Origin: Marivita geojedonensis
GTDB lineage: Bacteria; Pseudomonadota; Alphaproteobacteria; Rhodobacterales; Rhodobacteraceae
NCBI RefSeq assembly: GCF_002115805.1
Contig: NZ_JFKC01000002.1
Location: 1 to 64,000 of the forward strand
Length of the DNA stretch: 64,000 nucleotides
Direction: 5' to 3'
The stretch's first letter is position 1. The number at the start of each line of letters is the position of its first letter. A program made the position numbers and the translations under genes. Shown in pieces: positions 8,621 through 63,392 of the stretch. A model generated the notes under the pieces. It searched no databases. It was given only the letters and a program-made list of their open reading frames with translations, and was not told the DNA's origin.

Positions 8621-8869
8621 ACTGTGTTCCAGTTACTGTGGGCAAACACTGTGTTGCGAACAGTATGGTCAACACAGCGATTCCAAACACTGTGGTCAAC
8701 ACAGTCTTTCAGCCAGCCCAGCGCCATTTCAACGCACGAAAAACTGTGCGATGAGTGTGCAACGCACGAACTAAAAACTGTGCGATGCGCAAGTGGCTTG
8801 TTTTTATGACTAAAGTGGTGCCCGGGGGCGGAATCGAACCACCGACACGAGGATTTTCAATCCGACCAC
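8621..8869 (-). repeat. Attachment-site repeat, copy A (arms plus tRNA-Phe 3' half)
   Basis: This is a 249-bp sequence identical by eye to 35396-35644 and about 90% identical to 58054-58303, all in the same orientation. The first ~190 bp hold repeated ACTGTG or its complement (8621, 8635, 8648, then inside CACGAAAAACTGTGCG and AAAAACTGTGCGATGCGC). The last part is a tRNA-Phe fragment. Clustered short repeats next to a tRNA core are typical of integrase arm sites. Sequences to the right differ at each copy, marking element boundaries. Confidence 0.8.
8816..8863 (-). other. tRNA-Phe(GAA) 3' half, att core A
   Basis: Read on the minus strand, this is the anticodon loop TTGAAAA, the 3' anticodon strand, TCGGTGGTTCGATTCCG (T arm) and the acceptor end CCCCGGGCACCA. 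The 5' half (D arm and acceptor 5' strand) is missing; the sequence diverges just 5' of GGA. It cannot make a tRNA. It is the usual footprint left when an element integrates into the 3' end of a tRNA gene. Confidence 0.85.
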
Positions 8870-35395: not shown

Positions 35396-35644
35396 ACTGT
35401 GTTCCAGTTACTGTGGGCAAACACTGTGTTGCGAACAGTATGGTCAACACAGCGATTCCAAACACTGTGGTCAACACAGTCTTTCAGCCAGCCCAGCGCC
35501 ATTTCAACGCACGAAAAACTGTGCGATGAGTGTGCAACGCACGAACTAAAAACTGTGCGATGCGCAAGTGGCTTGTTTTTATGACTAAAGTGGTGCCCGG
35601 GGGCGGAATCGAACCACCGACACGAGGATTTTCAATCCGACCAC
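35396..35644 (-). repeat. Attachment-site repeat, copy B (arms plus tRNA-Phe 3' half)
   Basis: This is identical by eye to copy A (8621-8869) over 249 bp. A further ACTGTG-type stretch precedes it (GACTGTGCTCC and ACGCTGTGGTCG, about 35368-35393). The unique DNA to the right begins element 3. Confidence 0.82.
35591..35638 (-). other. tRNA-Phe(GAA) 3' half, att core B
   Basis: The sequence is the same 48 bases as core A: anticodon loop, T arm and acceptor end to CCA on the minus strand. The 5' half of the tRNA is absent. Confidence 0.85.
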
Positions 35645-35912: not shown

Positions 35913-36545
35913 TCAATTCGTGTATTCGTGTGATGACATTGCTTCGATCATTGTGGTCCGGTCCTGAACCGCGCCCGTTTGCAGATACTCCATAGCTTTG
36001 AGCGCCGCCTCATGTGCCTCCACCGATGAGCCGCCTGTACAATCTTCAGCGACCCGGCAGAAGTAGTCGGACTGGTGCCCATCCACGAACGTGTAGTGAA
36101 CACAAACATCTGTCAGACCACCGCACAGGAGCAACGTGTCGACTTTCAGGCCGCGCAGTAGGATTTCAAGGTCAGTTCCGAAGAATGCCGAATAACGCCG
36201 CTTTGGGATGATGTAGTCGCCTTTGCGATATCCCATTTCCTCTTTGGCGACCTCGGTGCGCGGATCGCCCTCAAGGCAATGGACGTCCTCGTCTCCGTCC
36301 AATTCTCGACCGAAATCGATCAGATCGGGACGATGGACTTCTTGGATGAAGATCACGGGTATATCGTTCTCATGAGCCGCATCGACCAGATCGCGCGCAG
36401 CGATCATGCGATCCTTGTAACCCGGCATATTGTCGATGGACCGCACTTCGCTGTTGTCAATGAAGGTGCTTTTTTGAATGTCGATCACGATGAGCGCGGA
36501 CCGACCTTCGATCAGGTTTCTTGCTGTTTTCGTCTTTGTCGTCAT
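35913..36545 (-). CDS. Isochorismatase-fold cysteine hydrolase in a guanidine-riboswitch operon
   Basis: The protein is 210 residues. The D-K-C triad of the family is visible: Asp ~22 in ALIVIDIQKS, Lys in DYIIPKRRYSAFFGTDLE, and the nucleophile Cys in LLLCGGLTDVCVHYT. The fold hydrolyses amides such as N-carbamoyl compounds, biuret or ureidoacrylate; from memory, guanylurea hydrolase is also in this superfamily. It lies 18 bases after the Gdx-type exporter gene and behind a guanidine-II riboswitch. A substrate that is, or releases, a guanidino compound is therefore plausible. The substrate itself is an inference from context. Confidence 0.82.
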   Translation of the reverse strand: MTTKTKTARNLIEGRSALIVIDIQKSTFIDNSEVRSIDNMPGYKDRMIAARDLVDAAHENDIPVIFIQEVHRPDLIDFGRELDGDEDVHCLEGDPRTEVAKEEMGYRKGDYIIPKRRYSAFFGTDLEILLRGLKVDTLLLCGGLTDVCVHYTFVDGHQSDYFCRVAEDCTGGSSVEAHEAALKAMEYLQTGAVQDRTTMIEAMSSHEYTN

Positions 36546-36563
36546 TTTCCGTGTCCTTTCGTC

Positions 36564-36881
36564 TTAGTGCGCATCTGAACCGAGCAGAAACATCCCCGCA
36601 ATGAGAAGTGTCAGACCAGCGATTCCGGACATGCTGAGGTTTTGATTGAAGGACATCACTCCAACCAGGACCGATCCGACAGAGCCGATTCCGGTCCAGA
36701 TCGGATAGGCGATCCCAAGGGGGAGCCGGGTCATCGCGGCATAGAGGGCGACGATGCTTGCAATCATTGCGATGAGGGTCAGAGCGCCAAGTGTCCAAGT
36801 GAAACCAAAGCCGAGCTTCTTCAGCCCGGTCGCCCAAGCGACTTCCAAAGCACCTGCTGTCAAAAGAAAAACCCAAGCCAT
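36564..36881 (-). CDS. gdx: SMR-family exporter, Gdx/SugE subtype (guanidinium exporter)
   Basis: The protein is 105 residues with four membrane helices. The SMR glutamate is Glu ~13 in LTAGALEVAWATGLKKLGFG, and the second helix region TRLPLGIAYPIWTGIGSVGS matches the Gdx/SugE subtype rather than EmrE. Known Gdx proteins exchange two protons for one guanidinium ion. A mini-ykkC riboswitch directly upstream supports this function. ATG 36881 follows GGAGG. The gene is followed by a hydrolase in the same operon. Confidence 0.88.
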   Translation of the reverse strand: MAWVFLLTAGALEVAWATGLKKLGFGFTWTLGALTLIAMIASIVALYAAMTRLPLGIAYPIWTGIGSVGSVLVGVMSFNQNLSMSGIAGLTLLIAGMFLLGSDAH

Positions 36882-36899
36882 TTCGACCTCCACTTTACG

Positions 36900-36944
36900 C
36901 AGGTCGTCCTGGCAAATACCCGTTCATAGCCGGGTCGTCCCGGC
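36900..36944 (-). promoter_or_regulatory. Guanidine-II (mini-ykkC) riboswitch
   Basis: On the minus strand, two hairpins each carry an ACGA tetraloop. P1 is GCCGGG-ACGA-CCCGGC (36944-36929) and P2 is CAGG-ACGA-CCTG (36911-36900), joined by a 17-base linker. Two ACGR-capped stems 7-40 bases apart, just before a ribosome site, define this class. GGAGG of the exporter gene follows 6-12 bases later. Guanidine should stabilise both loops and free the ribosome site. Confidence 0.88.
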
Positions 36945-37187
36945 AGGCTATCGACTATTCGCTAAATGTGGGATCACTTATTGTCAATCCGCCAGCTGAC
37001 CGCATGACGACTTGAAAGCGGACCTTCGGAGCCTGACTTCCAAGGTCCGCTTCGTCCCGCCAAGCCGACCTTAGCGCTGAACGCAGCTGACGGCTGGAAC
37101 GAGCCCGTACCTACCGAATGCTGCGCCTACAACGAATGGCGGCTTACGTAGCTGAGGCGCTCGCACGCTGATTTGTGGCTAATGGGT

Positions 37188-38204
37188 TCAATGATGCCGA
37201 TAGGTTGGAGGGCCCAACATGTTCAGCGAACATACTCCGGGCGCAGCGGCGATTATGTCCGGAATGCGATTGATAAGCGACGAGCAGGTTGTAAATCGAT
37301 AATTCGCGTTGTTGCAGTTCAGTTCCAGATCAGGCTCGCCGTCAATCTTCCACGCGTTAGTGTCGGTTTCACCAGGGCGGTACACGCGCCCTTCCATCGC
37401 AAATGAGAATACCGGCCCTTCGTTCGTCGTGATGCGCGTGCGGTCCACGGTGCCGATCATGCCGCCCGGAGGGATATCGGTACTCATACTTGTGCTGTGA
37501 ATCGGTTCGTCCAGGGTCACCGCTGTCACGTCAGATGAGATCGCCGATACGGTGAGCCCGAGGCGCGCCACCAGCGCTTCGAGCGTTTGACGGGCCACGA
37601 ATTCAGGCCAGCCATCAGACGTGATAACTTTTTCGAACGCAGCCTTGGGTTGGCAGACCATCAAATGATCGGCGACTTCGGGTCCGTAATCGTCAACATT
37701 CCATCGGCAATGTCCCGTCACGCGATCCACCTTATGTACCGCTCCGAGCAGAGTTGTGACCAGGTTCACCCAGAACACATCCTGCGCGCCGGAGGCGGCC
37801 AGCGTCACGCCGTTGGATTTGGCGAGCGCGTCCAAAGCCTTGGCGTGATCGGGAGCGGTCGTCCAAGGGAAGATGGTTTCTTCCTCGATCGTGACGACAT
37901 TGGCGCCATTCCCGAGACAGATTTCGAAGTGCGGGCGCATCGTGGAAAGGTAGCTGCCCACGCAGACCACCGCGATATCGGCACCGCGGGAAAGCACTGC
38001 GTTTGCATCGTTTTCGACAGGGATGCCGAGACTGATACCGAGTCGGGCGACATCGCCAAGGTCCCGGCCGACCTTGGAAGGACTGCGCCCGATTGCGCCG
38101 ACGATTTCGGCGCCTTTGTCAACAAGTAGACGCGTCGCGATGGCTCCCATCGTGCCGACACCGTAGACAACAACGCGCATTCCGGAAAATGGCTTGAGGG
38201 TCAT
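37188..38204 (-). CDS. DapB-like NAD(P)-dependent dehydrogenase
   Basis: The protein is 338 residues. The Rossmann start MRVVVYGVGTMGAIATRLLV and the stretch EIVGAIGRSPSKVGRDLGDV, followed by IAVVCVGSYLST and VTIEEETIFPW, are typical of the dihydrodipicolinate-reductase-like group, including 2,4-diaminopentanoate dehydrogenase relatives. These act on amino or amine substrates. The C-terminal half is less conserved. It overlaps the upstream SnoaL-like gene by four bases, so the pair is co-translated. Specific substrate unknown. Confidence 0.72.
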   Translation of the reverse strand: MTLKPFSGMRVVVYGVGTMGAIATRLLVDKGAEIVGAIGRSPSKVGRDLGDVARLGISLGIPVENDANAVLSRGADIAVVCVGSYLSTMRPHFEICLGNGANVVTIEEETIFPWTTAPDHAKALDALAKSNGVTLAASGAQDVFWVNLVTTLLGAVHKVDRVTGHCRWNVDDYGPEVADHLMVCQPKAAFEKVITSDGWPEFVARQTLEALVARLGLTVSAISSDVTAVTLDEPIHSTSMSTDIPPGGMIGTVDRTRITTNEGPVFSFAMEGRVYRPGETDTNAWKIDGEPDLELNCNNANYRFTTCSSLINRIPDIIAAAPGVCSLNMLGPPTYRHH

Positions 38205-38593
38205 CCGGCGACTTGTCGGTCATAATCATCGCCGTCGAACCAGCCAAGCGAAGACGTGATCTTCATCTCGTCGTTCAGGTTCCACTCCTCCCAGCCGCAC
38301 ACATCGAGCGGGTTACCGGTCTCGGCGTGATGCCCGGAAAATGTCCACAGGTAGATAACGTGGCTGCCCGCAGACCGAATGCCATCGCACACCAAACGCA
38401 AGTCAGGGACATCGGCGTGGAACCCTGCGGCCATGGCTGTAAGGCCTTCGTGACCTAACGACGGTTCGCCCTGATTGATAACGATGCTGCTGCCCGAAGT
38501 ATGAAAGGCCGCGACGTTTTCCGGCACTTTTGAATTCCACGCCTGTGTATAGCGGCGCGCAAGGTCGTCCAATTCACTTTTTGCAAATGCCAT
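38201..38593 (-). CDS. SnoaL/NTF2-like protein
   Basis: The protein is 130 residues. The cone-like NTF2 fold pattern is LARRYTQAWNSKVPENVAAF, then GHEGLTAMAAGFHADVPDLR and VIYLWTFSGHHAETG. This is the SnoaL-like polyketide-cyclase/ester-binding group, which acts as small hydrolases, isomerases or binding proteins. It overlaps the downstream DapB-like gene by ATGA. ATG 38593 is preceded by GGGAGG; the open frame reaches further upstream. Confidence 0.72.
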   Translation of the reverse strand: MAFAKSELDDLARRYTQAWNSKVPENVAAFHTSGSSIVINQGEPSLGHEGLTAMAAGFHADVPDLRLVCDGIRSAGSHVIYLWTFSGHHAETGNPLDVCGWEEWNLNDEMKITSSLGWFDGDDYDRQVAG

Positions 38594-38738
38594 TTTTCCC
38601 TCCCAATCAACTTTGGGAACGGTACTTTCACTTCGCTTCCGAGGCAACAAGCAGACCTTGGCTTGAAGAGACGAGCGACAGCTTTGTCCCGCGACCTGTT
38701 CATTGAAAATGCAAGGTCTCAGCGCCTGCTCTCAAATC

Positions 38739-58053: not shown

Positions 58054-58303
58054 ACTGTGTTCAAGTTGGTGTGGGGCAAACACTGTGTTGCGAACAGTGT
58101 GTCCAACACAGCGATTCCAAACACGGTGTTCAACACAGTGTTTCAGCCCGCCCAGCGCCACTTCAACGCACGAAAAACTGTGCGATGAGTGTGCAACGCA
58201 TGAAGTGAAAACTGTGCGATGCGCAAGTGGCTTGTTTTTATTACTAAAGTGGTGCCCGGGGGCGGAATCGAACCACCGACACGAGGATTTTCAATCCGAC
58301 CAC
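58054..58303 (-). repeat. Attachment-site repeat, copy C (arms plus tRNA-Phe 3' half)
   Basis: The sequence aligns over its whole length with copies A and B, with scattered differences mainly in the arm part (for example GTGTCCAACACAG for TATGGTCAACACAG and TTATTACTAAAG for TTATGACTAAAG). It ends with the same tRNA half. Extra ACTGTG-type repeats precede it (58040-58052). It is the most diverged copy and so the oldest or from a different element. Confidence 0.8.
58250..58297 (-). other. tRNA-Phe(GAA) 3' half, att core C
   Basis: The same 48 bases as cores A and B. The 5' half is absent again; the sequence to the right differs after GACCAC. Confidence 0.85.
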
Positions 58304-63255: not shown

Positions 63256-63311
63256 AATAGTCTTGACTTGAGAATATCATCCGGCTTACCTGATAGCGCC
63301 TACCAAGCTGA

Positions 63312-63392
63312 CACAGGAGAGGCCGATCGCATCGGCGCCGAAGGAGCAACCCCCCGGAACCTCTCAGGCAAAAGGACTGTGATCGGCAAGGG
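63312..63392 (+). promoter_or_regulatory. Glycine riboswitch (single aptamer)
   Basis: Conserved aptamer blocks are in order: CAGGAGAGGCC, GGCGCCGAAGGAGCAA, CCCCCCGGAACCTCTCAGGC and AAAAGGACTGTG. Only one aptamer is clear; the next 90 bases lack a second set. CCCGCGAC (63424-63431) can pair with GTCGCGGG (63473-63480) at the ribosome site of the next gene, a probable expression platform. Glycine should turn on the following gene. Confidence 0.88.

Follow-up and report, generated by a model that had tools for sequence, protein, structure and literature searches.

A guanidine-II riboswitch before a Gdx-type exporter gene and an isochorismatase-fold hydrolase gene: a candidate guanidine-responsive operon in Marivita geojedonensis

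Guanidine riboswitches have been described together with exporters, carboxylase-pathway genes, GdmH, CtdA and GNATs (PMC12186494, PMC9788692, PMC10018355). Where the guanidine of bacteria comes from, and why riboswitches that sense it are so abundant, is an open question, and it is on this question that the hydrolase considered here bears. Control of gdx by the guanidine-II class is already known; within the literature searched, the association with a hydrolase appears new. We found no paper there that treats a guanidine riboswitch and an isochorismatase together, although an earlier mention is possible, key primary papers having been outside the search.

The guanidine-II locus and its predicted switch

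The window analysed here is the 64,000-nucleotide stretch that opens contig NZ_JFKC01000002.1 of M. geojedonensis. An earlier note had placed in it a guanidine-II riboswitch that controls a Gdx-type SMR gene and a hydrolase gene, and the features listed below, judged from sequence, confirm the identity of all three.

36898–36947 (−): guanidine-II (mini-ykkC) riboswitch aptamer (RF01068 and local covariance model)
36929–36944 (−): P1 hairpin, GCCGGG-ACGA-CCCGGC (sequence; covariation in a 48-site alignment)
36900–36911 (−): P2 hairpin, CAGG-ACGA-CCTG (sequence; helix 2 paired in 100% of 48 sites)
36901–36906 (−): anti-Shine-Dalgarno segment CGACCT in the P2 loop and 3' arm, a six-base perfect complement of AGGTCG
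36884–36891 (−): Shine-Dalgarno region of gdx, GGAGGTCG, just before the ATG at 36881
36564–36881 (−): gdx (PF00893, 73 bits)
35913–36545 (−): gene for an isochorismatase-fold cysteine hydrolase (PF00857, 147 bits), 18 bases after gdx, as the note had stated

The two ACGA-capped hairpins, 17 bases apart as described in the note, have the paired GG-ACGR-CC form of the class. The mini-ykkC covariance-model search that the note had proposed (run on 2 kb) matched RF01068 at 36899–36946 (−) over its full length (48/48) with 35.2 bits against a gathering threshold of 32 (E 7.4e-5), and a genome-wide covariance-model search found this to be the sole RF01068 site in the 4.31-Mb genome. With a local covariance model made from 48 guanidine-II sites of Rhodobacterales and relatives, the window site being one of the 48, the aptamer scores 51.8 bits. 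Both GGACGRCC cores are near-invariant across the 48-site alignment, and its stems covary, with 77 double-changed cells against 29.7 in shuffles and much worse values for all slid versions.

The segment complementary to CGACCT is AGGTCG at 36884–36889. In the predicted ligand-free minimum-energy fold (z −2.4), P1 is kept, P2 is opened and CGACCU pairs with AGGUCG, so that an aptamer strand occludes the Shine-Dalgarno region, as expected for a member of guanidine-II; the fold agrees with the SD/anti-SD scheme published for this class (PMC7544219). A six-base complement of the CGACCT type was found in many other hydrolase-linked leaders, and over 71 leaders the longest Shine-Dalgarno complement averages 4.2 bases versus 3.3 in shuffles. 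The predicted fold thus fits a translational ON switch: guanidinium would bind the P1 and P2 hairpins, whose ACGA loops would kiss, the CGACC segment of P2 would then be unavailable for pairing with the AGGTCG Shine-Dalgarno, and translation of gdx would follow, the hydrolase gene 18 bases further on being read from the same mRNA. In this operon form the hydrolase has a start region of its own, so its control depends on coupling or polarity. We infer ligand binding by the leader, co-translation of hydrolase and gdx, export by Gdx and the class of the hydrolase substrate; evidence from the sequences themselves covers the identity of the riboswitch, the predicted occlusion, the gene order, selection on the protein and the recurrent co-regulation of hydrolase and exporter.

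Some 240 bases upstream of the riboswitch, genes resembling those for 2,4-diaminopentanoate dehydrogenase and SnoaL lie on the same strand (37188–38650, −), and a glycine riboswitch is found at 63304–63389 (+; 62.6 bits). PADLOC defence annotation gave no match, and in a scan for promoters and terminators the sigma-70 consensus was of little help for this group. Four exact minus-strand copies of one 36-base stretch from the 3' half of tRNA-Phe occur, at window positions 8827–8862, 35602–35637 and 58261–58296 and at contig positions 94694–94729; the complete tRNA-Phe gene is found only at the 94.7-kb copy. To judge from sequence, the copies resemble att sites, arranged in tandem, of elements that integrated at tRNA-Phe, and the gdx–hydrolase operon lies just within the 22.7-kb segment between two of them (35602–58261).

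The exporter and hydrolase proteins

The SMR protein has 105 residues and scores 73 bits with PF00893. Its residues G10, E13, W16, S42, Y59 and W62 are present, which bears out its designation as Gdx-type, and all of these except G10, which was scored in the window protein, are kept in it and 10 relatives, the pattern of the Gdx subtype: E13, W16, S42, Y59 and W62 have been described for Gdx-Clo, and W16 distinguishes Gdx from Qac transporters (PMC7695847). It falls short of the NCBIfam SugE equivalog NF008512 (70 bits vs a cut-off of 126) and shares ~40% identity with the canonical SugE of the same genome. By sequence it is a separate, Gdx-like branch outside the canonical SugE branch; it would export guanidinium.

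The hydrolase (210 residues) is a clear member of the isochorismatase-like family, with 147.4 bits for PF00857 against a cut-off of 27. In 95 relatives there is no variation at the catalytic triad positions D22, K115 and C148 or at E69, D77, R80, E86, H89 and Y118. Strong purifying selection acts on the protein (dN 0.029 and dS 0.45 versus the homologue at L032; dN/dS ~0.06 versus near relatives). Its AlphaFold2 model (mean pLDDT 88) has its best VIA Z, ~22, to the isochorismatase-type fold and is about equally close to maleamate amidase, RutB, N-carbamoylsarcosine amidohydrolase, BiuH and TrtA (VIA Z 20–22). Structure therefore does not discriminate the substrate, and naming one from the fold was abandoned, none of the five amidohydrolases being singled out. 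Membership in the BiuH/TrtA/GuuH clade, tried with family models, phmmer and pairwise BLAST, was likewise rejected. We know of no assay for any member of this hydrolase's clade.

Genomic contexts of the hydrolase and of guanidine-II sites

That a co-regulated isochorismatase-fold hydrolase, a non-standard partner according to the note, does accompany the riboswitch is borne out by the comparison across genomes: a guanidine-II site adjoins the hydrolase gene at 24 of 80 genome loci encoding relatives. Linkage follows identity to the window hydrolase, being found at 18 of 21 loci at ≥84% and at six of 59 below that value (1/5 at 79–84%, 3/16 at 74–79% and 2/38 lower). In 87 hydrolase-bearing records the local model recovered 25 sites at E 1.1e-5 or better, the next match having E 0.29; the window and several of these loci are in the training alignment and many others are outside it. 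With the riboswitch occurring about once per genome, chance would essentially never place it beside the hydrolase. In the tree of the hydrolases the linked loci fall together, a group of 27 rows that surrounds the window having support 98, while several deeper branches are weak. The linked loci are arranged as follows.

Riboswitch–gdx–hydrolase: the window, L032–L038, L042, L043, L046, L049, L051 and L062
Riboswitch directly on the hydrolase, without gdx: L039, L040, L041, L045, L047, L048, L056 and L058 (six Ruegeria and two Roseibium loci)
Riboswitch–gdx remnant–hydrolase: L053
Riboswitch–PACE transporter–hydrolase apparently as a single operon: L078, 3467–4621, in a metagenome genome of the Rhizobiaceae group
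Divergent riboswitch–gdx unit next to the hydrolase: L087

Where the switch sits directly on the hydrolase, seven of the eight genomes carry a separate gdx (SMR) gene directly after a second guanidine-II site, and the genome with the gdx remnant has such a second site directly before a separate SMR gene. In each of the three operon-type genomes checked there is a single guanidine-II site. Where the linked gdx was lost, the switch has stayed on the hydrolase, which argues that guanidine control of this gene is itself under selection. The gdx-less loci were also considered as proof of guanidine degradation, an argument that was dropped because nearly all of these genomes have a second riboswitch–gdx unit elsewhere. 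In Maritalea mobilis DP3N28-3 (L031, upstream of 4001), transposase-like sequence reaches to ~30 bases before the hydrolase and stands in place of gdx and the riboswitch.

Homologues below ~79% identity are mostly found elsewhere, near DgcN/DgcA-like genes, a fumarate-reductase-like flavoprotein, GlpD-like genes or amino-acid ABC importers, and a scan of 55 loci of the more distant hydrolases gave no other class of guanidine riboswitch at the gathering threshold. From these contexts, the substrate range of the clade may be broader or different, and guanidine control may extend to part of it only. At L082, L094, L099, L100, L106 and L110 the hydrolase lies between genes that were named, by reading their sequences, as DgcN/DgcA-like and D-amino-acid-aminotransferase-like; neighbourhoods of the L082 type suggest that the family may have further substrates.

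A second context is provided by the M. geojedonensis genome itself, which encodes a hydrolase paralogue with 63% identity over aligned residues. Its operon (L179, 763–7622; genome G000, contig C5) also encodes a Lys/Arg/Orn-type ABC importer, a DMT transporter, ornithine cyclodeaminase (582 bits vs a cut-off of 350), ArgE (acetylornithine deacetylase), SugE/Gdx (131 vs 126 bits) and RidA. Related putative catabolic operons were found at L220 (3772–11208) and L219 (3763–9564); in Roseovarius sp. W115 the order importer, hydrolase, DMT transporter, ornithine cyclodeaminase, SugE, RidA is the same, and the first part of such an operon is present in Sulfitobacter pontiacus S1704. No guanidine-II site was found beside the paralogue operon of M. 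geojedonensis. By analogy, the pairing of RidA with an isochorismatase-fold hydrolase is reminiscent of pyrimidine breakdown, where RutC accompanies RutB. Active-site residues are common to the riboswitch-linked and paralogue contexts, which suggests a substrate akin to basic or guanidino amino acids.

Guanidine-II sites were also surveyed for their first downstream gene. At 53 sites in 295 genomes of the family this was a PACE transporter gene in 27 cases (including L120, L121, L123, L125, L127, L130 and L131), gdx in 22, a carboxyguanidine-deiminase-like gene in two and unclear in two, the PACE assignment being backed by PF05232 and NF033664 on two examples. Among 29 further sites across the class, PACE came first at three (L258, L260 and L267, in other families), Gdx at 16 and deiminase-like genes at eight. 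No link between PACE and guanidine riboswitches was found in the literature searched. Their recurring guanidine-II control suggests that the chlorhexidine-type PACE exporters may carry guanidinium or related cations as native substrates. A PF05232 search of the M. geojedonensis genome gave no match, and neither did its controls. ACT_3 proteins (PF10000) are encoded directly downstream of guanidine-II or a riboswitch–gdx unit, at L162 (1447–1839) and as the first gene at L253, and are another possible guanidine-regulated gene.

Substrate of the hydrolase and relation to known systems

We are highly confident, from the sequence comparisons, that the operon is regulated by guanidine-II and that the hydrolase belongs to the guanidine response, and the enzyme is probably part of how these marine Roseobacter-type bacteria handle guanidine-related compounds. 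The account that we favour, and consider reasonably probable as a whole, is a guanidine-induced two-gene operon in which the hydrolase cuts a guanidino compound that accompanies guanidine. As an Asp–Lys–Cys amidohydrolase it would act on a small guanidino compound, probably one derived from arginine, and cut its amide, ureido or carbamoyl bond; since the arrival or breakdown of that compound would also yield guanidine, guanidine would then act as a product or indicator of the substrate, as proposed for CtdA and canavanine (PMC10018355). A guanidino or carbamoyl substrate, as guessed in the earlier note, is plausible from the contexts of the hydrolase, and we give a substrate of the guanidino/ureido class about an even chance. 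More tentatively, the hydrolase might represent an unrecognised branch of the isochorismatase fold, dedicated to the guanidine response, accompanied by Gdx in two types of operon and acting on a new guanidino substrate, either guanidine or a guanidine-releasing, arginine-derived guanidino amide.

A more specific proposal is that the enzyme hydrolyses guanylurea (N-carbamoylguanidine), the released guanidine inducing the operon and Gdx exporting both guanylurea and guanidinium. Guanylurea hydrolases do belong to the isochorismatase-like superfamily (PMC9800807), and the triad and an HRPDL/HRPEI motif are common to the window hydrolase and the MET guanylurea hydrolase of Pseudomonas mendocina (L111, 20653–21288, picked as the plasmid's cysteine hydrolase beside a nucleoside deaminase). 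Two points make such a substrate conceivable: identity between the MET enzyme, the second guanylurea hydrolase, and the first, GuuH, is itself only 44.8% (PMC9800807), and guanylurea is a good substrate of Gdx exporters, with a Km about twofold lower than that for guanidinium (PMC10829512). The comparison with the characterised enzyme that the note had called for turned out otherwise: the window hydrolase has 29% identity to the MET enzyme and by sequence falls outside the guanylurea/biuret clade, and whereas the MET enzyme scores 227 bits against biuret hydrolase, the window enzyme scores 66. Moreover, guanylurea is known chiefly as a product of metformin, but marine Rhodobacterales carry the operon widely and in diverged forms. 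We regard this reading as unlikely.

The hydrolase could instead have an unrelated function and lie after a guanidine-II/gdx cassette by chance, given that many homologues occur in unrelated contexts without a guanidine riboswitch and that the gdx–hydrolase pair lies at the edge of the repeat array associated with tRNA-Phe, a place of fluid gene order. This is quite improbable, the switch having been kept on the hydrolase after loss of gdx, the link recurring with another transporter at L078, and the paralogue lying in an operon with SugE/Gdx. Very improbable, too, is a new metal-free, cysteine-dependent guanidinase that yields urea and ammonia, by which the regulon would both export and destroy its ligand. 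It would suit the observation that guanidine-riboswitch genes mostly export or degrade guanidine (PMC12186494), the control of the hydrolase alone at some loci, the invariant or nearly invariant acidic residues E69, D77, E81 and E86, and a genome in which no urea/guanidine carboxylase scores above the cut-off and a single DUF1989 gene was found. However, a guanidinase would lessen the need for the separate switch-controlled gdx that genomes with a hydrolase-only switch nearly always keep, and the paralogue lies in an amino-acid operon. To our knowledge, characterised isochorismatase-fold amidohydrolases cut amide and urea C–N bonds, not guanidinium. For a hydrolase under guanidine control independently of the exporter, as the favoured account has it, the substrate would point to a natural guanidino compound that marine Roseobacter-type bacteria deal with.

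Of the known systems, the guanidine-II–sugE/gdx unit of Escherichia coli likewise has two ACGR-capped hairpins, the SD/anti-SD arrangement and a Gdx-type first gene; the window differs from it in its second gene, for an isochorismatase-fold hydrolase, which elsewhere is the sole gene controlled. GuuH and the MET enzyme share the fold, the cysteine triad and a guanidine-related setting, with SugE in their genomes (PMC9800807), but the window hydrolase bears no sequence sign of membership in their clade, the MET enzyme being much closer to biuret hydrolase. BiuH and RutB also share the fold and triad, and the window hydrolase is far below the equivalog cut-offs of both (68.3 vs 370 bits for BiuH). 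Operons for guanidine carboxylase, CgdAB and AtzF and for the guanidinase GdmH resemble the window in the guanidine-riboswitch control of enzymes and transport, whereas the window hydrolase is of an unrelated family. Finally, with CtdA and the canavanine-acting GNAT enzymes, guanidine has been proposed to be an indicator of guanidino antimetabolites (PMC10018355, PMC9788692); their protein families differ from those of the window, and their riboswitches are of classes I and IV.
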